Of a stretch of DNA of 22,053 nt, positions 2,811 through 18,961 are shown piece by piece (position 1 is the stretch's first letter; each line of letters begins with the position of its first letter). A program made the translations under genes and the position numbers. Origin of the DNA: Sphingomonadaceae bacterium (GTDB lineage: Bacteria; Pseudomonadota; Alphaproteobacteria; Sphingomonadales; Sphingomonadaceae); contig JACDGO010000002.1 in NCBI GenBank assembly GCA_013821585.1, positions 1-22,053 of the forward strand, in the 5' to 3' direction. The notes beneath the pieces are model-generated. The model was given only the letters and a program-made list of their open reading frames with translations. It searched no databases and was not told where the DNA came from.

Positions 2811-2830
2811 GATCAGCGGGATCGCTGATC
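2811..2830. repeat. Perfect 8-bp inverted repeat between FAH and LLM genes
   Basis: GATCAGCG-GGAT-CGCTGATC is a perfect 8-bp stem with a 4-base loop, in the 232-bp gap after the FAH stop and before the LLM start. It has no T-run on the minus strand, so it is not a typical intrinsic terminator. It could be a partial terminator, an mRNA-stabilising hairpin or a protein site. A CCATGG palindrome abuts it at 2830-2835. I see no gene in the gap. Confidence 0.5.
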
Positions 2831-2899
2831 CATGGTATTCCGATGATCTTTGCTGAGGTCACGCAGTTTTGGCTACGCTCATCAACGTTGGTTATCCGA

Positions 2900-3730
2900 T
2901 CACTCCGCGACGACCTTATTCTCAATCGCACCCAGGCCTTCGATCTCGACGCGGACCACATCGCCGGGTTCCAGGAACCGGGGCGGAGACTGACCGGCAC
3001 CGGACCCGGCCGGGGAGCCGGTAGTGATGATATCGCCGGCTTCGAGGGGGAGGATGGCGGAAATATGGGCAATCAATTCCCAGATGTTACATTGCATTTG
3101 GGCTGTGGAGGAGTTCTGGCGCAGCTCACCGTTCACCCAAGTGCGGATCGTCAGCTTGTGCGGGTCATTGATTTCACTGGTGGTCGTGATCCACGGGCCA
3201 AATGGGCCGTGGGTCGCTCCACTCTTGGCCAGTACCAGGGTCTCGGGACGGGCGTAAGCGCGCACAGTTAAATCGTTGACGACGACGTACCCGGCGACAT
3301 GGCGCGCCGCGTCGGACACGGAAATCTGGCTGCATCGGTGCGCGATGACCACTCCGAGTTCACCTTCGTAGTCAAGGGTCGAGACGGCGACCGGACGGAT
3401 CACCGACGAATAGGGGGCCGCCGCGGCGCCGGCGAGTTTGGCGAAGATGGTCGGGCAGTCACCGATCGGCCCGCAAGTCTCGATCGCGTGATCGCGATAA
3501 TTCATGCCGACCCCAAGGAAGAAGCGCGGGAGTGGAATCGGCGCGCATAATCGCTCGAGCTCACAAGGCATGACACGCCCACGACGCGCAAGGGCAGCAG
3601 CCCGCGTGACGAGATCGCTGCTCAAAATATCGAAAAGGGTTGGTGCGAGGGATCGCAAATCGACGATTCCACCGTCCACCACAGCGCCAGGCCCGGTAGC
3701 GTCGTCATAACGGTAAGTTGCTAGCTTCAT
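2900..3730 (-). CDS. Fumarylacetoacetate hydrolase (FAH) family protein
   Basis: A protein of 276 aa from ATG 3730, with the usual FAH N-terminus (MKLATYRYDD..., then a G-rich D-L segment). GVGMNYRDHAIE (about 73-84) holds the likely catalytic H81/E84 pair, YEGELGVVI (121-129) the metal ligands E122 and E124, and VVNDLTVRAYA the third ligand D153. A lysine in AKSGATHGPFGPWI and the late ITTGSPAGSG loop are also family features. Members hydrolyse C-C bonds of acylpyruvates or isomerise and hydrate 2-oxo-diene acids from meta-cleavage, using Mg or Mn. Here it probably processes a ring-fission product. It may be co-transcribed with the LLM monooxygenase downstream and is divergent from the second LysR regulator. 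The upstream Shine-Dalgarno is weak. Confidence 0.93.
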   Translation of the reverse strand: MKLATYRYDDATGPGAVVDGGIVDLRSLAPTLFDILSSDLVTRAAALARRGRVMPCELERLCAPIPLPRFFLGVGMNYRDHAIETCGPIGDCPTIFAKLAGAAAAPYSSVIRPVAVSTLDYEGELGVVIAHRCSQISVSDAARHVAGYVVVNDLTVRAYARPETLVLAKSGATHGPFGPWITTTSEINDPHKLTIRTWVNGELRQNSSTAQMQCNIWELIAHISAILPLEAGDIITTGSPAGSGAGQSPPRFLEPGDVVRVEIEGLGAIENKVVAE

Positions 3731-3748
3731 CGTTCGTTATCCGGCAAA

Positions 3749-3776
3749 ATTCAATAAATTCTGAGGTTTTTCTCAA
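3749..3776 (-). promoter_or_regulatory. Candidate promoter for the FAH gene
   Basis: Read on the minus strand, TTGAGA (3776-3771), a 16-base spacer and TTGAAT (3754-3749) form a weak sigma70-like pair about 18 bases before the FAH start codon. The region is noticeably AT-rich compared with its surroundings. Motif-based call only. Confidence 0.3.
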
Positions 3777-3782
3777 GACGAG

Positions 3783-3801
3783 CCATTCAGTGCGGTTATG
3801 C
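3783..3801. promoter_or_regulatory. Candidate LysR-type operator (CCAT-N11-ATGC)
   Basis: CCAT-N11-ATGC with exact T-N11-A spacing (T3786, A3798) sits in the 131-bp gap between the divergent FAH and LysR genes. It lies just upstream of a TTGACA hexamer (3808-3813) that could be the -35 box of the LysR gene, although no good -10 follows it. The site would be about 50 bases upstream of the predicted FAH transcription start, a common LysR position. It shares 11 of 19 positions with the element at 588-606. Confidence 0.45.
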
Positions 3802-3861
3802 TTATGGTTGACAATGCCAGCGATGCGGCGGACCATTCCGGACGCGCCAGGGAGAGGCACC

Positions 3862-4785
3862 ATGCTTGAATCGCGTCGTCTGCGACAGTTCCTGACCGTC
3901 TATGAGCTTGGCAGCATCGGCCAGGCTTCGGAGAAGCTGCTGCTCACCCAGCCGGCGCTGTCGAAGAGCGTTCGGCTGCTCGAGGACAGCCTTGGTGTGA
4001 AGCTGTTCGAACGCACCACGCTGGGTGTCGTGCCGACGGTTTTCGGGAAGGCGCTCGCGATGCATGCCAAGGCGATCGAGGCGCAGGTGCGCCACGCCGA
4101 GGCGCAGATCGCGAGTCTTCAAGGCAATACCCAGGGACAGGTGTCGGTCGGTATCGGACCGAGCATGGCGACCGCGTTGATGCCGCTGGCGACGCTGCGC
4201 ATTCAGGAACGTCAGCTCGGCATCGAACTGAGCGTCGTCGAGGGCCTCGTCGACGAGCTGATTCCGGCGCTGCGGCGCGGCGAGATCGACCTGGCGATTG
4301 GCGGTTGGCCCAAGGTCGCCGACCCGGCATTTTTGACCGAGGTCCTGGCTCAAGACCGGGTTCAGGTCTTTGCTCGCGCGGCCCATCCGCTGGCCGGGCG
4401 CGCGATCGAGGTCACCGAATTGCTCGATCATCCCTGGGCCCTCCCGCCGTCGTCGCAGCGCTGGCGGCAGAAGTTCGACGAATTCTTCTTCGCGCAAGGC
4501 CTGTCGGCGCCCAAGCCGGCGGTGGTCTCCAATTCGGCAATGTACCTCAAGGCACTGATGCAGAAGGGCGACTATCTGAGTTTCCTTCCCGCCCAGCTCG
4601 CGGCGGAGGCGGACCTGCTGGTCCCAATCGACGTATTCCCTTCGGAAATCACGATCGACATCAGCCTTACGTACAAAAATCGAACACTATCGAATCCCGC
4701 CTGCCTCGAAGTCGCGGAGATTTTGCGCGATGTGGCGATAGAAGTGACCAGTCCGCGCGAGCCCGCACTCACAAGAGCTGCGTGA
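3862..4785 (+). CDS. LysR-family transcriptional regulator, paralogue of the 657 gene
   Basis: The open frame begins at 3718, but ATG 3862 has a good GGGAGAGG Shine-Dalgarno and gives the normal LysR N-terminus (MLESRRLRQFLTVYELGSIGQAS), so the protein is 307 aa. The HTH core is LLTQPALSKSVRLLEDSL followed by VKLFERT. The effector domain includes VSVGIGPSM, IPALRRGEIDLAIGGW and a C-terminal part with LSFLPAQL. It is clearly similar along its length to the regulator at 657. It is divergent from the FAH gene and most likely controls it. Its 3' end overlaps the convergent acyl-CoA dehydrogenase gene by 17 bp, so it closes the left end of the large minus-strand operon and may regulate that too. 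Confidence 0.94.
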   Translation: MLESRRLRQFLTVYELGSIGQASEKLLLTQPALSKSVRLLEDSLGVKLFERTTLGVVPTVFGKALAMHAKAIEAQVRHAEAQIASLQGNTQGQVSVGIGPSMATALMPLATLRIQERQLGIELSVVEGLVDELIPALRRGEIDLAIGGWPKVADPAFLTEVLAQDRVQVFARAAHPLAGRAIEVTELLDHPWALPPSSQRWRQKFDEFFFAQGLSAPKPAVVSNSAMYLKALMQKGDYLSFLPAQLAAEADLLVPIDVFPSEITIDISLTYKNRTLSNPACLEVAEILRDVAIEVTSPREPALTRAA

Positions 4786-5962
4786 TGCTGAGCCGGAGGA
4801 CATCCCGGGTGAAGTCACAGCTGTAGCCGACATAAGCGTCGTTGAGAAAACGGCCGGCCTCATATTCGCGCGCCACGCCGTAACCGCCGAGGATTTCGAC
4901 ACAGCGTTGCGCATTGGCGATGGCCGCGTCGACCGCGGCGGTCTTGGCGGCAGGGCCCTTGAACATGGCGGCGGCGCGCGGGTCGGTGGCACAGGCGCGG
5001 GCGGCATCCCACACCAGCAGGCGCGCCGAATGGACATCGACCGCCATGTCGGCGATTTTCAGCGCGACCGCCTGATGCTCGATGATCGGTTTCCCACCGC
5101 TCTTGCGTTCGCGAGCGTAGCGCAAGGCATAGTCGTAGGATGCGCGCGCCAGGCCGACAAAGCAGGCGGCGAGGCAGATCCCCATTTCGGGCATGCCGGC
5201 AAAGACCATGCCCGCGCCATTCTCCGGCCCGATCATCTGCGTAGCGGGGATGCGCACGTCGTCGAACACAAGCTCGGCATGTTCGGTCAGCGGCCAGCCG
5301 ATTAGCCGGGTGCGTGAGCCGGTCGAAAAACCCGGAGTTCCAGCGGGGACGTGGAAGATGGACAGGCCGTTGAAGGCGGGCTGGTCGGGAGCGGTGCGGG
5401 CGATAATGAAATAATGGTCGGCCACGCCGGCGTTGGTCACAAACGCGGACTTGCGGCCATTCAGCACCCACGAGTTGCCATCGCGGACGGCGGACAGTTT
5501 CGGTCCGGCCGCCGGGTCCATCCCGCCGGTCATCAGCTCGGACCCCGCGACGTCGGGTTCGCTTTGAGCGCCGGCGAACATCGTCAACGGGCGCTCCGCA
5601 ACCGAGCTCATGAGGTTTGCGGCCTGCTCTTCTCGGCCGGCCCTGATCATCATCAGCGGCATCGTTGCATTGAGCGCAAAATAATCCGCAGCGATGCCGA
5701 CATCCGCCGCGCCGAGTTCTTCGAGCATCAGCACCGCGTCGACGCAGGATCCACCCGAGCCGCCCTGCGCTTCTGGAAGGAAGATGCGCGTGAAACCAAG
5801 GGCGGCCCCCTTTTCGACCAGGGGACGGACCAACGGCCACGGGTCCTCGGGATCGCCTTCGCGATGGACGCGCTCAACAAGCGGCCGGATCTCATTCTGC
5901 GCGAAAGCGCGCGCGGTTCTTTGGAGCAGCGCCTGTTCCTCGGTCAGTTCGAAGGCGATCAT
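4769..5962 (-). CDS. Acyl-CoA dehydrogenase, atypical active site
   Basis: A protein of 397 aa with normal three-domain ACAD layout: helical N-terminus (LTEEQALLQRTARAF), middle beta domain (SEPDVAGSEL, WVLNGRKSAFVTNAGVADHY) and C-terminal helical domain (ARERKSGGKPIIEHQAV, VEILGGYGVAREYEAGRF). The flavoenzyme family oxidises acyl-CoA thioesters to 2-enoyl-CoA. The catalytic glutamate is normally in a YEGT/YEGA motif near the C-terminus. By my alignment that stretch is CDFT here, with D383 in place of Glu, so activity or substrate may be unusual; E259 lies near the alternative base position of isovaleryl-type enzymes. It is the last gene of the minus-strand operon and its ATG overlaps the stop of the preceding MDR gene (ATGA). 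Confidence 0.92.
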   Translation of the reverse strand: MIAFELTEEQALLQRTARAFAQNEIRPLVERVHREGDPEDPWPLVRPLVEKGAALGFTRIFLPEAQGGSGGSCVDAVLMLEELGAADVGIAADYFALNATMPLMMIRAGREEQAANLMSSVAERPLTMFAGAQSEPDVAGSELMTGGMDPAAGPKLSAVRDGNSWVLNGRKSAFVTNAGVADHYFIIARTAPDQPAFNGLSIFHVPAGTPGFSTGSRTRLIGWPLTEHAELVFDDVRIPATQMIGPENGAGMVFAGMPEMGICLAACFVGLARASYDYALRYARERKSGGKPIIEHQAVALKIADMAVDVHSARLLVWDAARACATDPRAAAMFKGPAAKTAAVDAAIANAQRCVEILGGYGVAREYEAGRFLNDAYVGYSCDFTRDVLRLSITQLL

Positions 5963-6942
5963 GAGCGGACTTTCAGAACGATCTTGCCGAGCGTCTTGCC
6001 GGTGTCGATCTGGCGATGCGCATCAGCTGCCTGATCGAGCGGCAACACGGTCAGCTTCGGCACTTTGAGGGCACCGCTTTCGAACAGGGGGCGCATCTGG
6101 TCGAGAATGTCCGGACGGGAGCTGAACGCCACGACCTTCGTCGTGACGTGATGTTTCTCCATCAGCCGCTCGCGATTGGCCATTTCGACCTCATCGCCGC
6201 GCAGGATGACGAGCAGCGTGCCGCCGGGCTTCAGCACTTCGTAGGATTTGAGGTTGGTTTCGCCGCCGATCTGGTCGAGGACAATGTCAATATCGCGGGT
6301 GGCCTCGACGAAGTCTGTCGCCGTATAGTCGATCACTTCGTCCGCCCCGAGCGAGCGGACGTAACCAGCCTTCTCCGGCGAGGCGGTCGCGACCACATGG
6401 GCGCCGAAGTGCTTCGCGATCTGGATGGCGAAGGAACCGACACCGCCGCCGCCGGCATGGATCAGCACGCGCATGCCGGGGCCGACATGGGCGAGGTCGA
6501 CGAGACCGTACCACGCGGTGCACGCCGCCATCGGCACCGTGGCCGCTTCCTCGAAGCTCAGATTGGCCGGCATCCGGCGCACTGTCCAGGCCGGAGCGAC
6601 GGCATATTCGGCATAGGCGCCCGGGCGCATCGGATCGAGCAGGCCATAGACCCGGTCGCCGATGTCCAGTTCTGACACGTCGAAGCCGCGGGCAACGACC
6701 ACACCGGACACGTCGTTGCCGAGGATGTGGCCTGGTGCACAGGGGAACAGCTGGTGCATCCAACCCTGGCGCAGCTTTTTGTCGAACGGGTTGACCCCCG
6801 CTGCATGGACCTCGATCAGCACCTCATTATGGGGCATCATCGGCGGCAACGGGACTTCCTCGAGCCGGAGCTGCTCGGGGCCACCATAGCCGGCGAGGCA
6901 AATGGCGCGCATCTTGTCGGCGACCGGCTGTTGGGCGTTCAT
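5959..6942 (-). CDS. Zinc-independent MDR oxidoreductase, quinone oxidoreductase-like
   Basis: A protein of 327 aa from ATG 6942, with AGGAGA nine bases upstream. It is a medium-chain dehydrogenase/reductase with GroES-like N-terminus (VLIEVHAAGVNPFDKKLRQG, ILGNDVSGVVVARG, IGDRVYGL) and Rossmann motif AGGGGVGSFAIQIAK, followed by GADEVIDYTATDF and DIVLDQIGG. The zinc-binding cysteine and histidine residues of alcohol dehydrogenases are absent, which points to the quinone oxidoreductase / enone reductase branch using NADPH. In the pathway it would reduce a C=C next to a carbonyl, or a quinone-like intermediate. It is 19 bp downstream of the preceding MDR gene and translationally coupled (ATGA) to the acyl-CoA dehydrogenase. 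Confidence 0.92.
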   Translation of the reverse strand: MNAQQPVADKMRAICLAGYGGPEQLRLEEVPLPPMMPHNEVLIEVHAAGVNPFDKKLRQGWMHQLFPCAPGHILGNDVSGVVVARGFDVSELDIGDRVYGLLDPMRPGAYAEYAVAPAWTVRRMPANLSFEEAATVPMAACTAWYGLVDLAHVGPGMRVLIHAGGGGVGSFAIQIAKHFGAHVVATASPEKAGYVRSLGADEVIDYTATDFVEATRDIDIVLDQIGGETNLKSYEVLKPGGTLLVILRGDEVEMANRERLMEKHHVTTKVVAFSSRPDILDQMRPLFESGALKVPKLTVLPLDQAADAHRQIDTGKTLGKIVLKVRS

Positions 6943-6961: not shown

Positions 6962-7942
6962 TCATAAAATCACGATCTGCTTGCCCGGCGGCGCGGCGGC
7001 AAACAGCGATGCGAATGCGGCAGGCGCCTGGTCCAACCCATGCCAGAGGGACTCGACGGGTCGGATTGCCCCGCTTTCGAGCCACCGCGAAAGCTGGCGT
7101 CGAGCGTCGGCGAAACGCGGTTCCCAGTCGGCGAGCAGGAAGCCCTCCATCCGCGCGCGGCGAAACAGGATCGACGCCGCATTGCCATAGCGCGGCGGGG
7201 CGTCGTCATTGTAGGATGAAATGAAGCCGAGCAGGACAATTCGCGCGCGCGGATTGAGGCGGGCCAATACGGCATCATGAAGCGCGCCGCCGACACCGTC
7301 AATAAACAGATCGATTCCGTCGGGAGCGGCTCGATCGAGCTCCGCCGGCTGGTCGCTGTCGATCGCTGCGCCGAATCCGAGTTCGTCAACCAGTGCCGCG
7401 CATTGGCGGTCCCCGCGCCCGGCGCCGATGACCCTGGCGCCGTCCAGCGCGGCGATCTGCCCGGCGAGCGATCCGACTGATCCGGCTGCGGGCGCGATGA
7501 GAACCGTCTCACGATCGCGCGGGCGGCCGACTTCATGGGTCGCGAAATAAGCGGTTAAGCCCGACGGTCCGAGTATGCCGAGATGCTGCTGCGGTAGGCC
7601 GAGCGAGAGGTCGAGCTTATGCAGGCGATCGGCGGGCAACGCCACCTGTTCCTGCCAGCCGACATCGCCCGCGGCATAGTCGCCGGCGTGGAAGTCGGGA
7701 TGGCGCGATTCGAGCACGCGGCCGATGCCCCGGCTGTCGACCAGCTCGCCCGGCCGGATCGGCGGACCGGCCATCGGCTTGTCGCACATCCTGAGGCGCG
7801 GGAAGGGATCCATCGACAGATGTGTGACCTCGAGCAGCACCTCGCCGTCGGCGAGCGTAGGGGCGCTGCCATCGACTATTTCAAAGTCGGCGGCGGTTGG
7901 GGCACCGGCCGGAAAAGCGCGAAGGACGATCCGGCGGCTCAC
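6962..7942 (-). CDS. NADP-dependent MDR reductase, PTGR/CurA-like
   Basis: A protein of 326 aa starting at GTG 7942, whose GTGA overlaps the stop of the alpha/beta hydrolase gene. The N-terminus (RRIVLRAFPAGAPTAADFEIV, then EVLLEVTHLSMDPFPRLRM) and the ILGPSGLTAYF and IAPAAGSVGSLAGQIAAL segments are typical of the prostaglandin reductase / leukotriene B4 dehydrogenase / curcumin reductase group. These enzymes reduce the C=C of enones and enals with NADPH and lack zinc ligands. The family's FIDGVGG and later YN residues are present. It is the second reductase in a row in this operon, so one may act on a ring-fission product and the other on a later unsaturated acid. Exact substrate is not predictable. 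Confidence 0.9.
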   Translation of the reverse strand: MSRRIVLRAFPAGAPTAADFEIVDGSAPTLADGEVLLEVTHLSMDPFPRLRMCDKPMAGPPIRPGELVDSRGIGRVLESRHPDFHAGDYAAGDVGWQEQVALPADRLHKLDLSLGLPQQHLGILGPSGLTAYFATHEVGRPRDRETVLIAPAAGSVGSLAGQIAALDGARVIGAGRGDRQCAALVDELGFGAAIDSDQPAELDRAAPDGIDLFIDGVGGALHDAVLARLNPRARIVLLGFISSYNDDAPPRYGNAASILFRRARMEGFLLADWEPRFADARRQLSRWLESGAIRPVESLWHGLDQAPAAFASLFAAAPPGKQIVIL

Positions 7943-8763
7943 TCGGCGTTCGCCAAGAAATGGTCGAGCACCCGGTTGAACTCGTCCGGCGCTTCGACAT
8001 TCGAGATGTGCCCGGCGCCGTCGATGACCTCGAGCCGCGCGCCCGGAATCGCGTCGGTCATGGCGCGAGCGACCTGCGGCGGCGCCACCCGGTCTTCGCT
8101 GCCGACGATTACGAGCGTCGGTACGTCAATCGTCGCGAAATCGGGAAAGTCAGTGAATCGGGTCACCATTTCGAGCGTCTTGAGATAGGAGGCCGAGTGC
8201 AAGGCGGCGAGGCTGTCGGTCAAATGGGTCTTTTGCACGGCGCCGATGTTGGGGCCGATGATCTGCTCGACGAGGACCGGGGCAAGCTCGGCGGGTGTCT
8301 GCCCGGCCAATAACGGCGCGCGCCTTGCGGCGAGGAATACCTCGACCTTACCCGGGGCCTGGGTCTCCTTCGATCCGGCACTCGTGTCGGCCAGCGTCAG
8401 GCTGGCGATCCGGTCGGGAAAGCGGCGCCAGCTATCGAGCGCGATGCGGCCGCCCATCGACAGGCCGACGAGGTGGATGCGCCGGGCGCCATAGTGGTCG
8501 GCGACGCGGATCACGTCGTCGCTAAAATCGGCCATTGCCAGCGCGTCATCATAATCGTCGCTGTCGCCATAACCACGGGCATCCCACGCAACAGCGGTGA
8601 AGCGGCGTCCGAAATGGCACAGCTGCGCGGTCCAGTTCCCGCGGTTGCCGCCGATGCCGTGGAGGAACAGGAGGAGCTGGCCATCGCCGGCCCGATCGAC
8701 GCAAAGCGATGGCGCCGGCCCAATCCGCTCGGTCGAAACCAGCGTATTGGCTACCAAACTCAT
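7939..8763 (-). CDS. Alpha/beta hydrolase following the NicX-type dioxygenase
   Basis: A protein of 274 aa with a complete alpha/beta-hydrolase triad: S102 in the nucleophile elbow GLSMGG, D224 in GSEDRV and H252 in GAGHISN. The oxyanion segment is FLHGIGGNRGNW (33-44) and DARGYGDSD follows. Members in ring-cleavage pathways cleave C-C bonds of meta-fission products, or deformylate N-formylmaleamate (NicD, in the nicotinate pathway). The ATG overlaps the stop codon of the NicX-type gene (ATGA), which makes a NicX-NicD type partnership attractive, but overall similarity also fits 3-oxoadipate enol-lactonase or RutD-like hydrolases. Role is therefore inferred from context. Confidence 0.9.
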   Translation of the reverse strand: MSLVANTLVSTERIGPAPSLCVDRAGDGQLLLFLHGIGGNRGNWTAQLCHFGRRFTAVAWDARGYGDSDDYDDALAMADFSDDVIRVADHYGARRIHLVGLSMGGRIALDSWRRFPDRIASLTLADTSAGSKETQAPGKVEVFLAARRAPLLAGQTPAELAPVLVEQIIGPNIGAVQKTHLTDSLAALHSASYLKTLEMVTRFTDFPDFATIDVPTLVIVGSEDRVAPPQVARAMTDAIPGARLEVIDGAGHISNVEAPDEFNRVLDHFLANAE

Positions 8764-9806
8764 GCCAGTTCCGGCACCAGCTTGCCGCCGATCACAACCG
8801 GCTTGTCATCGAGGCTGATCGTGCAGTGGCGGATCGGCAGATCGAAGTGGCCGAGCGTGTGGCGATTGGCGAAGGGATTGGCGCCGGTCGAGAACAGGAA
8901 GTTGCCGGCGAATGCGCGTTGTTCGATCCCGTTGGTATGCGCCTTGTCGTACATCATCATCGATTCCCAGCGCGCCCGCGGATTCATGCCCCAGCCGACA
9001 TGGCTGGTACCATAGGCCTCGGGGTCGTTCCATGCATCGAAATATTCGCGGGTCAGGTCGGCATCGAGCCCGACGCCCTCGACCGCGACTACATAGTCGT
9101 GTTCGATGCGCAATCGGACGGGCTTTTCGAGGTAGCGCTTGAAGGTGATGTTGATGTCGCCTTCGTCGAGCACGACGGTCCCGTTGACGGTGCCGAGCGC
9201 AGGAAAGCAGCTGCAGATACCACCCGGCCAAGTGGCCAGCGTCCCCGGATCGTACGCCGCGCCGAGGTTCCCGCCGATGCGCGCGCCTTCGAGGACGACC
9301 GACAGGTCGGTGCCGGCGGGCGAGGTGACGGTCATGCGTTTGGCTGCGCGCATCATGTCGCGGCCCTTGAGCACGCGCGGGATCAGCGTCTCGTCAGGCG
9401 CAAGCCGTTCGAGCGCGTCGGGATGCTCATTGCTGATGTAAAGGATGCGGCTACCGGCGCCGAGGATTTCAGGGGTCTCCTCGGCATGCATCAGCCCTTC
9501 GACGGTCAGGTCGGCGACCATCGTCGCGCGACTGAGCGCCTCGATAACGGGGCGGTTGCCGGCGATCGAATGCGACGAGCCGGTCGAACGCACGGGCACC
9601 GGCGAGTGTTGGGGCGGTGACGGCATCACCAGGTGGAATGGCTCGGCGCCGATGCGCAGCAATGCCAGCTCCGCCAGATGGACGTTGACCGGCCGCGACT
9701 GGGTTTCCGATAAGATCGCGACGCTGTCGCCGGGATTGACCTTCGACAGGCGGAAGGCCCGCTCGAAAACCGCGATCCAGCGCTCTTCCACTCTGTCAAT
9801 CAGCAT
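8760..9806 (-). CDS. NicX-type (2,5-dihydroxypyridine 5,6-dioxygenase-like) non-heme iron dioxygenase
   Basis: A protein of 348 aa from ATG 9806, with GGGAG upstream. The C-terminal part has TSHVGWGMNPRARW and HTLGHFDLP. H269, H320 and D322 match, in order and spacing, the iron ligands I recall for Pseudomonas putida NicX (H265, H318, D320), and the length is close to its 350 aa. NicX opens 2,5-dihydroxypyridine to N-formylmaleamate, using Fe(II) and O2. The fold is shared with M29 aminopeptidases, so the peptidase label seen in databases is the alternative, but the conserved triad favours a dioxygenase. The gene is followed by a coupled alpha/beta hydrolase and preceded by a hydratase. No other nicotinate-pathway gene is present, so the ring it opens may be a substituted pyridine or another hydroxylated ring. 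Confidence 0.82.
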   Translation of the reverse strand: MLIDRVEERWIAVFERAFRLSKVNPGDSVAILSETQSRPVNVHLAELALLRIGAEPFHLVMPSPPQHSPVPVRSTGSSHSIAGNRPVIEALSRATMVADLTVEGLMHAEETPEILGAGSRILYISNEHPDALERLAPDETLIPRVLKGRDMMRAAKRMTVTSPAGTDLSVVLEGARIGGNLGAAYDPGTLATWPGGICSCFPALGTVNGTVVLDEGDINITFKRYLEKPVRLRIEHDYVVAVEGVGLDADLTREYFDAWNDPEAYGTSHVGWGMNPRARWESMMMYDKAHTNGIEQRAFAGNFLFSTGANPFANRHTLGHFDLPIRHCTISLDDKPVVIGGKLVPELA

Positions 9807-9870
9807 GATTTTCTCCCGCTTCGGCGAAAGGTTAGCCGTCCGATCGCGGCGCGCTCTCCTTCATTCGCCG

Positions 9871-10632
9871 TCACCTGTCATAACTTCTTGACGATGGCAC
9901 ACGGCCAACGCGAAGAGTGCCCAACGCACCGAAGTCGGCGATGACCTCATCGCCGATTGCGAAGGTCGCCGAGCGCGCCATCGCGCCGGTCGCAATCCAG
10001 TCGCCGGCGCGAACCGGCCGCTCGCTGCACGCTCGCTTTCTCACCAGCCACCGGGCAGCCTCGAGCGGGTCGCCGAGGACCGCCGCCGCGTCGCCAGTCG
10101 AGACGAGCTCGCCATTGCGGAGCAGGCGGACTGTGACGTCGGTCGGGGTCGCGAGGGCCGAGGTGGGGAACGCGTCGCCGATCACCAGCCCGACGTTGGC
10201 GGCATTGTCGGCAACGATGAACCCCGCGCCGAGCGTTAGGGCGTCGGGTCGGCTCGGCCGATTGAGCTCGATGCCGAGATGGAGGGCCGCGATGTCGACG
10301 GGACGCAGTTCGCCGTCGGGCGTCGTGCCGATGCGGACGAAGATCTCGGGCTCGGCCTCCGCCGGTCGATCGCCGTGGAGGTCGACGTCGGCCGGCGCGG
10401 TCCATAGCCCTCCGTCGAATACCCGGCCCCAGATCGGTTCGGATATGCCAAGGAAGGACTGGCCGGCTGGGCTGGTCGCGCCGACCTTCCAGCCGACCAC
10501 CTGCGGCATGTTTTCGGCGAGCTGGTCGGCGATCGCATAGCCGCGGTCGAGTTCCAGCGGCTCGGCGTCGGCCAGCTCTTCGCCGGTGCGCCGCGCGTCG
10601 GCGAATCTCGCGGCCCTATCGCGGTCGGTCAC
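9871..10632 (-). CDS. 2-keto-4-pentenoate hydratase / 4-oxalocrotonate decarboxylase-like protein
   Basis: A protein of 253 aa starting at GTG 10632, within a GTGA overlap with the GMC gene stop. MhpD-type members of the FAH superfamily show VVGWKVGATS (45-54), a metal-binding AEAEPEIFVRIG segment, a GIELNRP stretch and the late GDWIATGAM (usually G-x-x-x-x-TG). These proteins hydrate 2-hydroxypenta-2,4-dienoates or decarboxylate 4-oxalocrotonate after meta-cleavage of aromatic rings, with Mg or Mn. I cannot tell hydratase from decarboxylase by eye. It is followed by a 64-bp gap and the NicX-type dioxygenase, so it should act on a downstream product of that ring opening. A second FAH-fold enzyme is encoded at 2900. 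Confidence 0.85.
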   Translation of the reverse strand: MTDRDRAARFADARRTGEELADAEPLELDRGYAIADQLAENMPQVVGWKVGATSPAGQSFLGISEPIWGRVFDGGLWTAPADVDLHGDRPAEAEPEIFVRIGTTPDGELRPVDIAALHLGIELNRPSRPDALTLGAGFIVADNAANVGLVIGDAFPTSALATPTDVTVRLLRNGELVSTGDAAAVLGDPLEAARWLVRKRACSERPVRAGDWIATGAMARSATFAIGDEVIADFGALGTLRVGRVPSSRSYDR

Positions 10633-12194
10633 GCGACGAAATCCGACCAGTTATTGGCCATTCGATCCGCCGCCCGCGCGGCGAGCGCCAGCACGGTGAA
10701 AGTTGGACTGACCGCGCCGATCGTGGGAAACAGGCCGCCACCCGCGACGAGCAGGTTGGCGACGTCGTGGACCCGGCCGTAGCTGTCGGTGACGGAGGTC
10801 GCGGCATCCACGCCCATGATCGTCCCGCCGGCAACATGCGAATAGACCGGCATCGGGACGACCCAGCTTTCGGTCGCGCCGGCGGCGCGCATCACGCGCA
10901 CGCCCTCGTCATTGGCATGGGCCCACAGCGCCCGGCTGTCCGGCGCGACATTATGGGTGACGCGCGCCAGCGGCATGCTGTTGCGATCCGTCTCCGCTGC
11001 GAGGGTGATGCGGTTGTTCGCCTGCGCAATATTCTCGACGATGCCGTTGATCGTGCCGAGGTGGCGGCTGGCGCGTTTGAGGAAATCGTGCAGCGCGTTA
11101 CCGATGATGTCGGGGCGCGTGTTGCCGATGCCGATCAGGTCATTCGGCTTGACGGCCGGAGCGATGCCCCAGGTGTAACTTCCGAACGGCCCGGACCGCT
11201 GTTTCGGGTAGCCGTCCTGTGACATCAGCACCCCGGCGGTCATGCCGAGATGGCATTCGGTTTCCTCCGCGAACAGCCCGTAGGCGTTCGAAAGGGCGTG
11301 CATATTGAAGTAGCGGCCGACGAGGTCCGCGCCATTGCCGAGCCCATTGGGGTGGCGCTCGCCGGTCGACGCGAGCATCAGCCGCGCGTTCTGAACGGCA
11401 GCCCCGGCGAGGATGATGAGGCTTGCCGGTTGGACGTGGCGGGCGCCGGTCTGGTCGGAATAATAGAACGCGGTCGCGCGACCCTGCGCGTCGGTTTCGA
11501 CCTTCGTAACGGCGGCGTAAGCGCGGAACTCGGCCCCGCTTTTCTCCGCCGCGGGCTTGTGCAGCACGAGCGGGTTGAGCAGCGACTGGATCGGGCACCC
11601 GGCGTCGCACCATCCGTCGTACTGGCACGGCGGCCGCCCCTTGTACCAGATCGAAGTGATTGCCATCGGCGCCGGGGAAACGTGCATCCCGAGTTTTTCA
11701 AACCCGCGAGCAAGGATGCGGCCTTGCTTCGTCACCTTGTGTGGGGGCATCGGATAGGGCGCGCCGGGCGGGCGCCAGGTCTCGGCCTGGGCATCGCCGG
11801 CAATGCCGCACTCGGTCTGGATCTCATCGTACCACGGACGAAGCTCGTCATAGTCGATCGGCCAGTCCAGCCCCTGGCCGCTCTCCGATCGCATTCGAAA
11901 ATCGGCCAGGTGAAGGCGCGGCCAGCCGGCATAATGGTGGAGGGCAGAGCCACCGAAACCCCAGCCTACCGCCATGTTGTAGCCGACGCGGTCGCGACCG
12001 TCCTGGAGCACCGGCGACCCGCCCCATTTGAGGCGACGCGCCCAGATCTGGGAGCTGGTCAGATCGGACAACTCCCACGGCGGGCCGGCGTCGAGCACCA
12101 CGACCGATTTGCCCGCCGCGGCGAGGCGCGCGGCGAGCAGGCTGCCGGCGGCACCCGCCCCCATGATCGCCACGTCGCGCTTGTCGTGAACCAT
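10629..12194 (-). CDS. GMC-family FAD oxidoreductase with Fe-S type Cys motif
   Basis: An in-frame ATG lies at 12203, but GAGGA directly abuts it; ATG 12194 has the same GAGGA nine bases upstream, so I choose 12194 (521 aa). The N-terminus has the FAD-binding GAGAAG and VVVLDAG. CQYDGWCDAGC (C190, C196, C200) is a CX5CX3C motif like the one that binds a 3Fe-4S cluster in FAD glucose dehydrogenase alpha subunits. The catalytic His is H453 in SHVAGGTIMG; the usual Asn of the NPT motif is S496 (SPTF). It probably oxidises an alcohol or polyol-like group and passes electrons to a membrane acceptor. It heads the minus-strand operon but has no small-subunit gene beside it. It is a close paralogue of the 16938 gene. 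Confidence 0.93.
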   Translation of the reverse strand: MVHDKRDVAIMGAGAAGSLLAARLAAAGKSVVVLDAGPPWELSDLTSSQIWARRLKWGGSPVLQDGRDRVGYNMAVGWGFGGSALHHYAGWPRLHLADFRMRSESGQGLDWPIDYDELRPWYDEIQTECGIAGDAQAETWRPPGAPYPMPPHKVTKQGRILARGFEKLGMHVSPAPMAITSIWYKGRPPCQYDGWCDAGCPIQSLLNPLVLHKPAAEKSGAEFRAYAAVTKVETDAQGRATAFYYSDQTGARHVQPASLIILAGAAVQNARLMLASTGERHPNGLGNGADLVGRYFNMHALSNAYGLFAEETECHLGMTAGVLMSQDGYPKQRSGPFGSYTWGIAPAVKPNDLIGIGNTRPDIIGNALHDFLKRASRHLGTINGIVENIAQANNRITLAAETDRNSMPLARVTHNVAPDSRALWAHANDEGVRVMRAAGATESWVVPMPVYSHVAGGTIMGVDAATSVTDSYGRVHDVANLLVAGGGLFPTIGAVSPTFTVLALAARAADRMANNWSDFVA

Positions 12195-12348
12195 CCCTGC
12201 CATTCCTCGATGTTAACCCCCAAGCGGGCGGCTGCCATGTCTAAAAATGCCGCGGGTCCATCCCGGGAGTTATGGCGCGGCCCGGCGAAGTTCGGTTGTG
12301 CGCCGGATGGGCGGGACTAGTCTCGCCTCTTCGCGAGGGAGGGAAAGC

Positions 12349-13218
12349 GTGACTGACACGGTATTGGTGATTGGCGCGACCGGCATGCTCGGCAAGCCGG
12401 TCGCGGTTCGGTTGTTGTGCGACGGGTATCGGGTGCGCGTGCTGTGCCGCGCTCCGGACGCAGCCCGTGCGATGCTCGGAGACGGGTTTGACTATGTGGC
12501 GGGGGACGTGCGCGATCCAGGCGCGCTGCGCGGCGCGGTCGAGGGATGCCGCTTCGTGCACGTCAATCTGAAGGGTACGACGCCGGCTGAGTTGCGGGCC
12601 GTCGAGGTCGAGGGGACCGGCCTGACGGCTCGAGTGGCAAAGGCTGCCGGGGTCGAACGGCTGACCTATCTTTCGGGGGCGGGGATCGAGACGGCGTCTC
12701 CGCGGCTGCTTCCGGTGCGGATCAAGCAGGCGGCCGAAGCCGCAATCCGCGCGTCGGGAGTGCCGTACACCATCTTGCGTGCGAGCCATTTCATGGAGTC
12801 ACTCGACCTGTTCGTGCGCGGCCGGCGGGCGATCATCCTGGGTCGGCAGCCGCTCGCCTATCATTATCTCGCGGCCGACGATTACGCCGGCCAGGTCGCC
12901 GCGGCGTTCCGCTGCGACCAGGCGACTAACCTGACCTTGACACTCCACGGCCCGCAGCCGTTGACCATGGAGCAGGCGCTGACGACCTATGTCCGGCTGA
13001 TACGCCCAGACGTTACGATGGGGCACATGCCACTGTGGCCGCTGCGTTTGATCGGCGGCGTCACGAACAATGGCGGCCTGAAGATCGCGGTAGCGCTGTT
13101 CGACGCTTTTCCACGCATTCCGGAGACCGGCGACACGGGGCTTGCCGACCAACTGCTCGGGCCCGCCACGACGACGATCGCGGAGTGGTGCGAGCGTCGC
13201 CGCGCCGGCAAGGGATAA
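12349..13218 (+). CDS. NAD(P)-binding atypical SDR (NmrA/NAD(P)H-binding family)
   Basis: The frame is open from 12247, but the likely start is GTG 12349, preceded by GAGGGAGGG and giving VTDTVLVIGATGMLGKPVA directly, so 289 aa. The Rossmann motif is GATGMLG (about 9-15). GDVRD and a YLSGAG stretch follow, and the region TILRASHFMESLDLF is typical of NmrA/atypical SDRs. The classical YxxxK active site is not evident, so it may be a redox sensor, an isoflavone-reductase-like enzyme, or a pathway epimerase/reductase. It is divergent from the first GMC gene across 154 bp and lies 113 bp upstream of the TonB receptor start, so it is probably co-transcribed with the receptor. Substrate unknown. 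Confidence 0.85.
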   Translation: MTDTVLVIGATGMLGKPVAVRLLCDGYRVRVLCRAPDAARAMLGDGFDYVAGDVRDPGALRGAVEGCRFVHVNLKGTTPAELRAVEVEGTGLTARVAKAAGVERLTYLSGAGIETASPRLLPVRIKQAAEAAIRASGVPYTILRASHFMESLDLFVRGRRAIILGRQPLAYHYLAADDYAGQVAAAFRCDQATNLTLTLHGPQPLTMEQALTTYVRLIRPDVTMGHMPLWPLRLIGGVTNNGGLKIAVALFDAFPRIPETGDTGLADQLLGPATTTIAEWCERRRAGKG

Positions 13219-13278
13219 CCCCCTGTTATGAGGATGCGCTGATTATCTGGGTTACGAAGGGTCTCCACTCTTGGGACA

Positions 13279-13312
13279 TGACGGAAAGGGCACAAGCTTC
13301 CGTCAAGGAAGC
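13279..13312 (+). promoter_or_regulatory. Overlapping inverted repeats in the TonB-receptor leader
   Basis: TGACGGAA (13279-13286) and TTCCGTCA (13298-13305) form a perfect 8-bp inverted repeat with an 11-base spacer. GCTTCC (13296-13301) and GGAAGC (13307-13312) form a perfect 6-bp repeat with a 5-base loop. The two share bases 13298-13301, so as RNA hairpins they exclude each other. The second ends nine bases before the GGGAGGG ribosome site (13321-13327) of the receptor. The 8-bp dyad could equally be a DNA operator. Confidence 0.4.
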
Positions 13313-13331
13313 GCACCTATGGGAGGGTGAC

Positions 13332-15689
13332 ATGGCGAAAAGACTCGGTCGTCGGCTAGCCGGAGTATCGGCACTCGCGCTGGCGAATGCGCTGCCGCTC
13401 GCGCCGGTCCACGCACAGGTCGCCGCGCCGAACGCGCCGGCGAATCCGCAAGCGCGGGCCAGCGACAATTCGGGGATCGCCGACATCGTCGTCACCGCCA
13501 CGCGCCGCGAAGAGCGGTTGCAGGACGTGCCGATCGCGGTCACCGCCTTCAACAGCGAGTCGTTGCGGGCGTTGTCGACCCAGACCGTCGGCGACCTCGC
13601 GTCGATCACCCCCAACCTGTCGCGCACCTCGGGTCCGACCGGCGGCAACGACGCCTTCTTCTTCATTCGCGGCATTGGCCAGCTCGATTCCAATCCCGCC
13701 AACGATCCGGGCGTCGGTGTCTATATCGACGGTGTCTATCTCGGCCGCCTCCAGGGCGCTTCGCTCGACACCGCCGACGTGTCCCGGGTGGAAGTGCTGC
13801 GCGGGCCACAGGGTACGCTGTTCGGTCGAAACACGATTGGCGGGGCGATCAGCATCACGTCGCGCGATCCGTCGCACAGCTTCGGCGTGGAAGGCCGCAT
13901 CACGGGGGGCAGCCGCAATCGCTATGACGGCTTCGTCTCGATCGACACGCCGCTTTCAAAGGAGCTGGCGATCCGCACGTCGGTGTCGACCCGCAACCAG
14001 GACGGTTGGGGCAAAAACGTCTACACTGGCAAGACCTTTGGCGACGTGCACAATTTGCAATTTCGATCGAAAGCGGTGTGGACTCCGGCCGACCAGATCA
14101 AATTCACGCTGTCTGGCGATGCTATGCGTGGGCGCGGCACCTCGGCGCATACTATTCTTATCGGCACCGCGCCGGCCACGGCCCCGGTCGGAATCGTGAG
14201 CCCGGTGTCGCCATGCGGAACGACACCGCTCGGCGTTCCGTTCCCGTGCGATCTGCTGGCCGATACATCGACCGACATTGACAAGAATTTCCAGTCCATC
14301 GCCGGCCGCAATCGCCTCGACACTTCGGGCGTGTCGGGGACAGTCGAATGGGGCGATCCGAAGGCTTTCGCGGTCAAGGCGATCGTCGCCTATCGCAAAG
14401 TCGGCCAGCATGTCGAAAACGACTTCGACGGAACCGGATACCGGATTTACGAGAGTTTCTTCGATACACACACCCACCAGCTGTCGGGCGAGCTCCAGTT
14501 GCTCGGCAAGTCGTTCAACGAACGATTCGACTGGCTGGTCGGGCTCTATGGCTACAAGGAGCATATCGACAATAATAATTCGATCTGCCTGGGCGGGAAT
14601 TCGGGAACCCCGTTCCCAATTCGCAACGCCGGCAGCTGCCTGCGCAACAACCAGGTGTTCCAATTGGGCATCCGCTCATGGGCGGTATTCGCCCACACCC
14701 AAACCCACATCACGCCCGAGCTGACCCTCATCGTCGGCGGGCGCTACACGCACGAGCAGAAGAAGCAGGACTTCGATTTCTTCCTCGATAATACCGGCAA
14801 TGTGTTCAACCTGTTCGGCATCCCGCCAATCATCCTGCCCACACTCTCCCCGCGCAATCCGTTCCTGACGGTGCCGACCAGCTACCAGGGGACGTGGTCT
14901 GAATTCACCCCGAAGCTGGGGCTGAATTACAAGCCGACGCGCGACTTGCTGCTCTATGCGTCTTACTCGCGCGGGTTCAAATCGGGCGGCTTCAACGGTC
15001 GGCCGTCAAACAATCGCAGCGGCGGGTTCGATCCCATCCTGCCCTATGATCCCGAAACACTCACGGCCTATGAAGTCGGTTTCAAGTCCGACCTGATGGG
15101 ACGGCGGTTGCGGCTTAATGGCGCGGCCTTCTATTCGATCTATGACGGCATCCAGCTGCTGGTGCTTGACCCCGCCAACGGGTTTTTCAACAATGCCAAT
15201 GCGGGACGCAATCGCATTACCGGATTCGAGCTGGAGCTGACTGCGCGCCCGGTCGATTCGCTGACGCTTTATGCCAATGTCGGCTATAACCACGACAAAT
15301 ATACCAGGATCGACCCGCGCGCAGGCGTGGCCCTTAACGCCCATCTGCCGGTGACTCCGAAGTTGAACATGGCGGTCGGTGGCAATTACCGAGTCGACCT
15401 CGGCACCAGCGGCAAACTCGATCTTCGGGCCGACTTCAGCCACCGAAGCACCGTCTGGTACGGCGCGACCAACGAACCGCTCGAGCGGCAGCCAGGCATC
15501 GGTCTCCTCAACCTGCGCGCGACCTACACCGATCCGAGCAACCGCTACACCGTCGCCGCGTTCGGGACGAACGTAACCGACAAACGCTATTACTCGAACG
15601 TCCAGGACGTCCGCAAAGTGCTGGGCGTCGCCTTCGCGCAAGTGTCGCCGCCGGCGGAGTGGGGTATCGAGCTCGGAGCGAAATTCTAA
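13332..15689 (+). CDS. TonB-dependent outer-membrane receptor
   Basis: The start is ATG 13332, after GGGAGGG; the longer frame from 13035 is an artefact. The 785-aa protein has a signal peptide (KRLGRRLAG then hydrophobic ALALANALPLAPVHA, likely cleaved before Q29). The plug runs roughly 50-180 (DIVVTATRREERLQDVPIAV, FFIRGIGQ, GVYIDGVYLGR, VEVLRGPQGTLFGRN, GGAISITSRDP). The beta-barrel has the usual aromatic-rich strands (YASYSRGFKSGGFNG, YEVGFKSDL) and ends in a terminal phenylalanine. It belongs to the catabolism-linked receptor group abundant in sphingomonads, which import aromatic or other substrates with TonB-ExbBD energy. It probably imports the substrate of this cluster. The upstream leader contains inverted repeats that may regulate it. 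Confidence 0.96.
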   Translation: MAKRLGRRLAGVSALALANALPLAPVHAQVAAPNAPANPQARASDNSGIADIVVTATRREERLQDVPIAVTAFNSESLRALSTQTVGDLASITPNLSRTSGPTGGNDAFFFIRGIGQLDSNPANDPGVGVYIDGVYLGRLQGASLDTADVSRVEVLRGPQGTLFGRNTIGGAISITSRDPSHSFGVEGRITGGSRNRYDGFVSIDTPLSKELAIRTSVSTRNQDGWGKNVYTGKTFGDVHNLQFRSKAVWTPADQIKFTLSGDAMRGRGTSAHTILIGTAPATAPVGIVSPVSPCGTTPLGVPFPCDLLADTSTDIDKNFQSIAGRNRLDTSGVSGTVEWGDPKAFAVKAIVAYRKVGQHVENDFDGTGYRIYESFFDTHTHQLSGELQLLGKSFNERFDWLVGLYGYKEHIDNNNSICLGGNSGTPFPIRNAGSCLRNNQVFQLGIRSWAVFAHTQTHITPELTLIVGGRYTHEQKKQDFDFFLDNTGNVFNLFGIPPIILPTLSPRNPFLTVPTSYQGTWSEFTPKLGLNYKPTRDLLLYASYSRGFKSGGFNGRPSNNRSGGFDPILPYDPETLTAYEVGFKSDLMGRRLRLNGAAFYSIYDGIQLLVLDPANGFFNNANAGRNRITGFELELTARPVDSLTLYANVGYNHDKYTRIDPRAGVALNAHLPVTPKLNMAVGGNYRVDLGTSGKLDLRADFSHRSTVWYGATNEPLERQPGIGLLNLRATYTDPSNRYTVAAFGTNVTDKRYYSNVQDVRKVLGVAFAQVSPPAEWGIELGAKF

Positions 15690-16362: not shown

Positions 16363-16941
16363 ATGCAACCCACCCGACGCACCCTGTTGATTGGCGCAGC
16401 CGCCGGCACCGCCGCCATCGGTCTCGGCGTGCTGCCGTTCGTGATCGGCGATCGCACTGAGCATCTCACGCCGGCCGAAGCGAAGCATCGCGGCGTCCCG
16501 CTGACCAGCCTCGATAGTGCCGAGGCCGACATTTTGGGGCGGCTTGGCGACATTCTGCTGCCGGGCGCCGACCAGGCGGGGATCGTGAATTTCGTTGATC
16601 ATCACCTGTCGGTGCCATCGCCGGAAAGCCTGTTGATGGTTCGCTACATGGACGTCGCGCCGCCTTACCTCGATTTTTACCGAGCCGGGCTCGCGGCGAT
16701 GGACGGGGCGGCCAAGGCGGCACATGGCCAGCCGTTCGTGAAGTTGCCCGCGCAGGCCGCCGAACAGCTCGTCGTCGCGATGGGGCGGGAACAGCCGCGC
16801 GGCTGGCAGGGCCCCCCATCGCAACTCTTCTATTTCGTCACGCGCAGCGACGCGGTCGACGTCGTCTATGGCACCCGCGCCGGGTTCGAGAAGCTCGGGA
16901 TTCCGTACATGGCGCATATCGAGCCGGAAAAGGACTGGTGA
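16363..16941 (+). CDS. Gluconate 2-dehydrogenase subunit 3-like protein with Tat-type signal
   Basis: A protein of 192 aa from ATG 16363, with GGTGGAG upstream. The N-terminus PTRRTLLIGAAAGTAAIGLG is a twin-arginine-type signal. The body (LTSLDSAEADILGRLGDILLPGADQAGIVNFVDHHL) matches the small gamma subunit of gluconate 2-dehydrogenase and FAD glucose dehydrogenase, which acts as a hitch-hiker chaperone carrying the cofactor-loaded alpha subunit through the Tat pathway. Its stop overlaps the start of the GMC gene (GTGA), so the two should form one periplasmic dehydrogenase. No c-type cytochrome subunit gene is present here, so the electron acceptor must be encoded elsewhere. It could also serve the first GMC protein, which lacks its own partner. 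Confidence 0.88.
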   Translation: MQPTRRTLLIGAAAGTAAIGLGVLPFVIGDRTEHLTPAEAKHRGVPLTSLDSAEADILGRLGDILLPGADQAGIVNFVDHHLSVPSPESLLMVRYMDVAPPYLDFYRAGLAAMDGAAKAAHGQPFVKLPAQAAEQLVVAMGREQPRGWQGPPSQLFYFVTRSDAVDVVYGTRAGFEKLGIPYMAHIEPEKDW

Positions 16942-18518: not shown

Positions 18519-18961
18519 CTGGGATCGTCGCGCCCGCGACATCCTCTCGGCAGGCCGATTTCCCCGGCGAACCAGCCGGTATTCACTGGGCGCTGCGTCC
18601 CGAAATCGATGACCTCCGCGTGTCGCGCGATGGCCATTGCGCCGTTGTGCTCGGTCACGGTCTGGAGGTAGCGGGCGCGCACGATCAACTCGGTTGGTCC
18701 CGGGAGAAGATGCCAGGCATCGACATATGCCTCGACCTTGTCGCCCTCGACGAGCAGGTTCGAGACGCAGTGCCGGGTCGATTCCATCGAGCCCATGAAG
18801 CCCATCGCCACGTCGATGAAGCCGTCGACCCCGCCGCGGTAAATCGCGCCCATGTCGATCTCGGCGCCGGGATGGAAGACCGAGCGGAGCAAGTCGGCAT
18901 CGAGCCGGTCGAGCGCGCGGCAATAGCGATAAACCAGGGTGGCGATGGCATCGTGGTTCAT
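18503..18961 (-). CDS. SnoaL/NTF2-like protein
   Basis: A protein of 152 aa from ATG 18961, an ATGA overlap with the CoA-ligase stop that excludes the longer upstream frame. The region MNHDAIATLVYRYCRALDR and then FHPGAEIDMGAIYRGG is typical of SnoaL_4/NTF2-like proteins. The superfamily includes hydratases, isomerases, scytalone dehydratase and ring-hydroxylating dioxygenase small subunits. The function here may be dehydration or isomerisation of a CoA or hydroxylated intermediate, but no catalytic residue can be named with confidence. As the last gene of the operon it ends within the convergent GMC gene (16-bp overlap). Confidence 0.8.
   Translation of the reverse strand: MNHDAIATLVYRYCRALDRLDADLLRSVFHPGAEIDMGAIYRGGVDGFIDVAMGFMGSMESTRHCVSNLLVEGDKVEAYVDAWHLLPGPTELIVRARYLQTVTEHNGAMAIARHAEVIDFGTQRPVNTGWFAGEIGLPRGCRGRDDPSYAAA

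Follow-up and report, generated by a model that had tools for sequence, protein, structure and literature searches.

A NicX-like putative dioxygenase with a changed substrate pocket and a conserved gene cluster in a Sphingomonadaceae bacterium

Introduction

Hydrolases that act on ring-fission products are found both in the nicotinate route (NicD) and in the meta-cleavage routes (BphD/HsaD-type hydrolases), and the steroid A/B-ring cassette HsaA/HsaB-HsaC-HsaD contains a ring dioxygenase of the extradiol fold (HsaC). In the nicotinate-route dioxygenase NicX the iron is held by H265, S302, H318 and D320, each of which gives a dead enzyme when replaced by alanine, and the substrate 2,5-dihydroxypyridine (DHP) is bound by E177 (N1 and O1), H189 (O1), L104 and H105, the double mutant E177A/H189A being dead as well (PMC7910607). 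According to the same source, activity of NicX had up to 2021 been reported on DHP alone. Among the titles and abstracts listed from the open-licence literature, none reports a NicX-family enzyme with another substrate. A study of nicotine-degrading enzymes in the human microbiota (PMC11288164) reportedly uses the term 'NicX homolog'. The present work concerns a NicX-like protein of 348 aa from a Sphingomonadaceae bacterium, encoded in a stretch of 22,053 nucleotides (contig JACDGO010000002.1, positions 1 to 22,053; hereafter the window), for which a sequence-only reading had proposed a NicX-type dioxygenase in a non-nicotinate operon. It belongs to a frequent lineage in which the NicX fold occurs with changed substrate-binding residues and changed partner genes. 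From its homology and its neighbours, it is probably a mononuclear non-heme Fe(II) ring-cleaving dioxygenase acting on a hydroxylated ring other than DHP, either carbocyclic or an N-heterocycle.

The window protein compared with NicX

8760..9806, minus strand: putative NicX-like Fe(II) dioxygenase, 348 aa (homology, iron ligands and pocket residues mapped on NicX)

A phmmer search of the PDB with the window protein returned the NicX entries 7cn3, 7cnt and 7cup (E=6.7e-60, residues 12-344), and the remaining five matches (E up to 1) are chance-like, at E 0.16 and worse; judged by sequence, NicX is its one credible match among solved structures. Against 7cn3, 122 of the 328 aligned positions are identical (37%). 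All four iron ligands are retained in this alignment, with H265, S302, H318 and D320 of NicX mapping to H269, S306, H320 and D322; the sequence-only reading had named the triad H269, H320 and D322, which the mapping confirms, and S306 is the fourth ligand that it had not named. As for the pocket, E177 of NicX is replaced by N180, H189 by T192, L104 by M106 and E308 by F312. H105, the second member of the L104-H105 gating pair, is kept as H107 (several rows on the nic side carry F here), and a two-residue insertion lies immediately ahead of the equivalents of this pair. Since the iron ligands are retained and DHP-binding residues are replaced, the iron chemistry is likely kept and the substrate is likely different. 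NicX-like iron chemistry is most probably what the window protein performs, and the family call of a NicX-type ring-cleavage dioxygenase agrees with both the strength of the match and the intact iron site.

Residue 177, the tree and the nicotinate genes

Relatives of NicX (99 rows) were placed in a tree by an IQ-TREE quick search with SH-aLRT support and no bootstrap. One locus set, kept as the best 80 of 566 loci, leans to close relatives; eight loci that duplicated longer pieces were removed ahead of the tree, and L101 was handled as a duplicate of L005. A branch with SH-aLRT 100 separates 10 rows with E177 from 89 rows without it, window included. Alignment to NicX and a phylogeny with DHP dioxygenases had been suggested by the sequence-only reading as a check, and their outcome is that the iron site matches while the window protein falls outside the E177-bearing clade. 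H189 is present in nine of the 10 E177 rows. The iron ligands read HSHD in 97 of the 99 rows and HGHD in the other two, L104 and L105.

Within the lineage lacking E177, a group named type A here comprises seven rows (SH-aLRT 97): the window, L005, L006, L102, L007, L008 and L010. In each of them position 177 is N and position 189 is T or S; the same holds for L112, which is the gene of locus L141. The group was first spotted by its neighbour genes, and was confirmed by tree and residues for six of its seven relatives and by residues alone for L141. Elsewhere in the lineage, position 177 holds V, G, S, A, I, T or N, and H189 is mostly kept.

The nicotinate genes follow the same division. With NicA-F of the nic clusters of Azospirillum (L087) and Pantoea (L091) as queries, the window gave no match that covered half of the query at E 1e-10, in line with the earlier observation that NicA, B, C, E and F are absent from it. 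Eight of the nine E177 loci have one or more of NicA, B, C, E and F. With L087 and L091 excluded the figure is six of seven, which is the fair count because these two supplied the queries. The ninth locus, L090 (Peribacillus), has just a NicD-like hydrolase and an HpaB-like monooxygenase. Among the 89 non-E177 loci, NicF matched at none, NicE at one (28%), NicD at one (29%), NicC at four (27-33%), NicA at two (42-48%) and NicB at one (32%). In a separate sample of 397 Pseudomonadota genomes, drawn evenly and analysed afterwards, 40 genomes, the own one among them, match the window protein with an E-value of 1e-40 or lower. Sequence was retrieved for 29 loci outside the own genome, and residue 177 was read for these 29 alone. 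In their 4-kb pieces, nic genes stand at all seven E177 loci and a nic match (E 1e-6, at least 60 residues) at none of the 22 non-E177 loci.

The own genome of the window (2.8 Mb, 537 contigs, 91% complete) gave no NicE or NicF match. As a control, the same queries match in three genomes with NicX-type genes, the best NicF at 34-45% and the best NicE at 76%, 29% and 24%, so that the NicE control is strong in just one of the three. The own genome does show a NicA-like match (39%), which lies within a 913-aa frame, and weak NicC-like matches. Flanking nicotinate genes, which would have spoken for the standard nicotinate route, are lacking at the locus, and that route is rejected on the missing nic genes in the window and the missing NicE and NicF matches in the genome. 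As the binding pair and the gene context both differ from those of NicX, the window protein is not to be filed as a DHP dioxygenase.

The operon and the conserved type-A cluster

The gene of the NicX-like protein lies in what is, in form, a seven-gene operon on the minus strand, which in order of transcription consists of GMC oxidoreductase, MhpD-like, NicX-like, alpha/beta hydrolase, CurA-type MDR, PIG3-type MDR and acyl-CoA dehydrogenase genes. The operon and its surroundings are made up as follows.

2900..3730, minus strand: FAH-family hydrolase
3718..4785, plus strand: LysR regulator, convergent with the operon
4769..5962, minus strand: acyl-CoA dehydrogenase family protein, with Asp at the position of the MCAD catalytic Glu
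5959..6942, minus strand: MDR reductase, PIG3 type
6962..7942, minus strand: MDR double-bond reductase, CurA type
7939..8763, minus strand: alpha/beta hydrolase, 274 aa, triad S102/D224/H252, ATGA overlap with the dioxygenase gene
9871..10632, minus strand: MhpD-like protein (2-keto-4-pentenoate hydratase family), 253 aa, metal ligands E-x-E...E
10629..12203, minus strand: GMC oxidoreductase 1 (fructose/glucose dehydrogenase large-subunit-like), first gene of the operon
12247..13218, plus strand: NmrA-like NAD(P)-binding protein
13185..15689, plus strand: TonB-dependent receptor, start not fixed, a possible uptake port
16363..18518, plus strand: gluconate 2-dehydrogenase subunit 3-like protein (16363-16941) and GMC oxidoreductase 2 (16938-18518)
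18503..19003, minus strand: SnoaL-like protein
18958..20730, minus strand: benzoate/anthranilate-CoA ligase family protein, start not fixed

Four junctions of the operon are 4-bp overlaps (GTGA for GMC/MhpD, ATGA for NicX-like/hydrolase, GTGA for hydrolase/CurA and ATGA for PIG3/acyl-CoA dehydrogenase), and the two remaining gaps measure 64 nt (MhpD-NicX) and 19 nt (CurA-PIG3). Both the direct coupling of dioxygenase and hydrolase and the MhpD-like gene ahead of them had been pointed out by the sequence-only reading, and both stand. A consensus scan of the window found promoter- and terminator-like sites to be no commoner than in shuffled sequence.

The hydrolase scores best in NCBIfam against PcaD-like models (138-145 bits), followed by MenH (87 bits) and HsaD (77 bits), and its triad is intact in 67 of 68 aligned rows. 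The MhpD-like protein reaches 78.5 bits against the NCBIfam MhpD model, below the cut-off of 350. The metal ligands of canonical MhpD hydratase have the form E-x-E...E, and the corresponding positions are acidic in all 10 aligned rows (E-x-E...E in nine, window included, and D-x-E...E in L008); a loss of these ligands, suggested by a pairwise phmmer alignment, was overturned by the multiple alignment. In the acyl-CoA dehydrogenase, the Asp that takes the place of the catalytic Glu of MCAD lies within a conserved CDFTRD motif of its subgroup and is kept in five of five aligned rows. The CoA ligase is nearest to anthranilate-CoA ligases and then to benzoate-CoA ligases.

The order MhpD-NicX-hydrolase, on the same strand, is found at all eight type-A loci (the window and seven relatives with NicX identities of 60-77%), which excludes a chance arrangement. 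The relatives include Variovorax (L010), a gammaproteobacterial metagenome-assembled genome (L007), one of Rhodospirillaceae (L008) and L141, from another class and with 44% GC; an Erythrobacter litoralis homologue of the window protein has 76% identity, and Erythrobacter and Variovorax sp. J22P271 are type-A hosts that can be cultured. Among the eight loci, the MDR pair is present at seven, the acyl-CoA dehydrogenase, the FAH-family gene and LysR at six each (LysR at 28% in L010), the benzoate-type CoA ligase at four (in L141 as a piece at the stretch end) and GMC plus small-subunit gene at three; as several stretches are incomplete, these counts are lower bounds. The conserved cluster extends past the segment 7939-10632 that the sequence-only reading had marked. 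Relatives of the CoA ligase (60-61%) stand beside the cluster in L005 and L006, the SnoaL-like protein recurs in L005, L006 and L102 (43%), a RidA gene (58%) in L005, the NmrA-like gene in L141 (48%; L005 and L006 also have one of the NmrA family), and a pair like that at 16363..18518 in L010, while in L141 both of its genes are present, apart from each other. The upstream oxidoreductase varies: the GMC gene directly precedes MhpD in the window, lies about 8 kb upstream past DUF1302, DUF1329 and MMPL genes in L010, and is divergent, past the NmrA-like gene, in L141; L006 and L102 have an FAD-linked oxidase on the opposite strand (GlcD-like in L102).

Some further genes of the window were observed. 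Positions 621-2745 hold a luciferase-like (RutA/SfnG-like) monooxygenase (1552-2745) and a LysR gene at the cluster edge, whose ends overlap. At the other end, 18503-22053 carries SnoaL, benzoate/anthranilate-type CoA ligase, RidA, 4HBT thioesterase and acyl-CoA dehydrogenase genes in a row, a CoA-ester module of which the last gene (21367-22053), named by eye, is cut by the window end. A 161-aa protein at 15733-16218 has no Pfam match and recurs at 33% inside the distant type-A cluster L141.

Partner genes and frequency of the lineage

Partners were counted as matches within 6.5 kb of the NicX-like gene in 98 rows, with the query sources counted and nine nic rows, which match no query, included; the neighbourhood gene calls include some false frames. 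A hydrolase was matched in 66 rows, a flavin monooxygenase (one of four queries) in 59, two of them weakly (24-25%; L068 and L103), a CoA ligase in 49 and a flavin reductase in 21. ACAD-like flavoenzymes are the partners in two further groups of operons, types B and C, and the structures nearest to the type-B flavoenzyme are PDB 5gj7 and 5z8t. An HsaA/C2-HPAH-like monooxygenase adjoins the NicX-like gene in L104 and L105 (190 and 210 bits), L013 and L079 have FAD monooxygenases of UbiH/MhpA/3-hydroxybenzoate 6-hydroxylase-like families, and the closest matches of the L016 reductase are p-hydroxyphenylacetate hydroxylase reductase, FerA and HsaB. Some relatives of the partner flavoenzymes are phenol hydroxylases. 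Such repeated pairing with unrelated hydroxylases is as expected for an enzyme that cleaves hydroxylated products. An MhpD-like partner is also found near some type-B clusters, and L142, with no partner in its 4-kb piece, shows type-B genes on the other strand in a wider stretch.

The own genome carries a second NicX-like copy (L094, 51% identity), whose partner is again an FAD monooxygenase of UbiH/MhpA/3-hydroxybenzoate 6-hydroxylase-like families. It lies at 144-6624 of a contig of 6950 bases (C393), has S and Y at the substrate positions and overlaps the FAD monooxygenase gene; with an SMP-30-like protein, an SDR, an alpha/beta hydrolase and a sugar-type transporter named by eye around it, this is a second candidate ring-degradation operon.

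Several other arrangements were observed. In L015, L016, L037 and others from Alpha- and Betaproteobacteria, NicX-like, hydrolase, ACAD-like flavoenzyme and AMP-dependent CoA ligase genes form a four-gene operon, presumably degradative and unassigned, which flavin reductase and MarR genes frequently accompany; the Acidimicrobiia loci L019, L055 and L058 have hydrolase and ligase without a flavoenzyme match. On plasmids of Ensifer (L085) and Aminobacter (L086), an ACAD-like flavoenzyme, a hydrolase, a glutamine-synthetase-like protein and an APC permease stand by the NicX-like gene, a set that suggests an amine substrate which is first made gamma-glutamyl. In L104 and L105 the HsaA-like phenol hydroxylase neighbour coincides with Gly in place of the serine iron ligand. 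The NicX-like gene of L129 has one in-frame TGA, which may reflect either a broken gene or a sequencing error.

The phylum sample was searched with the window protein as query, and at most five candidates were scored per genome, a limit that may leave distant copies undercounted. Apart from the own genome, 22 of 397 contain a copy of 53-60% identity; 19 of 397 contain one of 33-41%, the NicX-type range, two genomes having both, and there are no copies between 41 and 51%. The lineage lacking E177 is thus about as frequent in the sampled Pseudomonadota as NicX-type copies.

Proposed route and alternative explanations

In the route proposed for type A, the substrate would enter through the TonB receptor, and its side group would be oxidized by the GMC oxidoreductases and/or it would be activated as a CoA ester by the benzoate/anthranilate-type ligase. 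With O2, the NicX-like enzyme would then open the dihydroxylated ring. The fission product would be cut, in the manner of NicD or BphD/HsaD-type hydrolases, by the co-translated serine hydrolase, and the MhpD-like and FAH-family enzymes would hydrate or split the resulting keto or dienoate acids. The two MDR reductases (CurA and PIG3 types) may saturate C=C bonds, and acyl-CoA dehydrogenase steps on CoA esters would feed central metabolism. What the data show is the homology, the iron ligands, the changed binding pair, the operon form, the cluster conservation and the lack of nic genes; the ring cleavage itself, the step order and the substrate are inferences.

A wider proposal is put forward tentatively: the NicX lineage lacking E177 may be an unrecognised dioxygenase class for carbocyclic aromatic rings that was recruited many times beside various flavin hydroxylase families, with type A as one complete route with a remade pocket (N180/T192), and in this class the NicX fold might take over the role of extradiol or gentisate-type enzymes. 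A carbocyclic, phenol-derived ring appears at least as likely as an N-heterocycle, and is judged slightly the likelier of the two, because some relatives adjoin phenol-hydroxylase-like flavin monooxygenases. No member of the lineage has E177, the ring-nitrogen contact in NicX, so it is reasonable to suppose a ring that lacks this nitrogen, but type B, with H189 kept, could still use a heterocycle. The non-nicotinate dioxygenase with a different substrate of the sequence-only reading gains from the operon context and the changed pocket, and its preference for an N-heterocycle is less supported, with E177 gone and phenol-hydroxylase-like partners present.

Several points weigh against this picture. 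Its weakest point is that the type-A core operon has no clear ring hydroxylase; no aldolase was found among the 20 window proteins scanned, and the luciferase-like monooxygenase (1552-2745) is matched in none of the seven type-A relatives. The scores of the MhpD-like protein and the hydrolase lie far below curated cut-offs, so that their exact reactions are not fixed, and L104 and L105, without the serine ligand, make the iron site not invariant in the lineage. No recognised partner appears in the 4-kb piece at seven of the 22 non-E177 sample loci, and about 40% of the 98 rows have no flavin-monooxygenase match, some contigs being short. Finally, the lineage is common and type A is patchy: none of six same-genus genomes has a NicX match at E 0.001, and among 397 family genomes, own included, seven match at E 1e-60 or better and a copy of 72-77% occurs in two besides the own, one of them being L101, the presumed duplicate of L005. 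Horizontal transfer of type A is a fair guess.

The N-heterocycle is a special case of the favoured reading, in which a substituted pyridone or another hydroxylated heterocycle would be opened by NicX chemistry and the hydrolase would serve as a NicD-like deformylase or amidase. In its favour, no characterised protein is closer than a pyridine dioxygenase, the neighbouring hydrolase has its counterpart in NicD, most of the wider lineage retains H189, and the RidA-family protein and the anthranilate-CoA-ligase-like enzyme of the window hint at nitrogen; yet the N1 contact E177 is missing in 89 of 89 lineage rows, H189 too is gone in type A, and L104 and L105 have phenol-hydroxylase-like partners. 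Molybdenum hydroxylases are the usual makers of hydroxypyridines, and none is found among the 20 window proteins scanned. This version is regarded as less likely than not. The fold might instead be kept for a reaction other than aromatic cleavage, for instance Fe(II)-dependent oxygenation of a non-aromatic ring or of an open-chain intermediate made by the operon. This would fit the absence from type A of the two substrate-binding residues and of a core ring hydroxylase, and the GMC, MDR and acyl-CoA dehydrogenase enzymes do suggest alicyclic or side-chain chemistry. It is considered unlikely, given the repeated pairing of the wider lineage with ring-hydroxylase-like flavoenzymes and a hydrolase, and the MhpD-like partner of type A and of some type-B clusters.

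Two explanations follow the annotation of relatives. That the window protein is a true DHP dioxygenase of a rearranged nicotinate or nicotine pathway is very improbable: many relatives are so named in JGI and the iron site is intact, but N180 and T192 replace the binding pair, E177 and nic context split cleanly together, and the own genome, 91% complete, lacks the NicE and NicF matches that the queries give in three NicX-type genomes and has a NicA-like match of 39% within the 913-aa frame and weak NicC-like matches. Several homologues are labelled 'peptidase M29' or 'leucyl aminopeptidase', but an M29-type aminopeptidase is scarcely credible here, as the ligands proven in NicX are conserved, the Pfam Peptidase_M29 profile gives no match to the window protein at E up to 10 (HMMER filters on), and the six PDB matches include no M29 structure. 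The profile reaches E 0.17 with the Azospirillum NicX (L087). A grouping with M29 by sequence, which the sequence-only reading had set as a point that could refute it, did not appear.

Two candidate substrates were dropped. For riboflavin/lumichrome catabolism, PMC12746152 describes the route's dioxygenase as a catechol dioxygenase relative and makes no mention of NicX; for homarine, nothing useful appeared among the papers listed.

Comparison with known systems

Among the 120 relatives listed, more than 30 are named '2,5-dihydroxypyridine 5,6-dioxygenase', and 'peptidase M29' is used for a few. These labels are probably both mistaken, and they would be easy to correct because a single residue, E177, separates the two groups. 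Likeness to peptidase M29 (thermophilic aminopeptidases) lies in these annotation names alone, with no profile match.

The window protein resembles NicX of Pseudomonas putida KT2440 in its whole-length homology, the H/S/H/D ligands, H105 and the coupled alpha/beta hydrolase gene, and differs from it by an identity of 37%, the pocket changes, the two-residue insertion and the lack of NicA/B/C/E/F nearby. Type-B operons (L015 from Roseibium, L037 from Polaromonas and others) belong to the same lineage, mostly at 57-62% identity, and share the order dioxygenase then hydrolase; unlike the window they mostly have V or G at 177, keep H189, and are accompanied by an ACAD-like flavoenzyme and an AMP-dependent CoA ligase, to which flavin reductase and MarR are frequently added. 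Type-C operons (the plasmid loci L085 of Ensifer and L086 of Aminobacter) are of the same lineage at 53-54% identity, whereas they carry T at 177 and H189, and their partners are ACAD-like flavoenzyme, hydrolase, TetR, glutamine-synthetase-like protein and permease. Identification of the substrate would reveal a ring-degradation route common to bacteria that, according to their record titles, come from marine, freshwater and soil sites. The logic of flavin monooxygenase, ring dioxygenase and alpha/beta hydrolase is also that of the steroid cassette HsaA/HsaB-HsaC-HsaD, and L104 and L105 even have an HsaA-like gene; on the other hand, a NicX-like dioxygenase stands here in place of the extradiol fold of HsaC, and the window itself has no HsaA-like gene.

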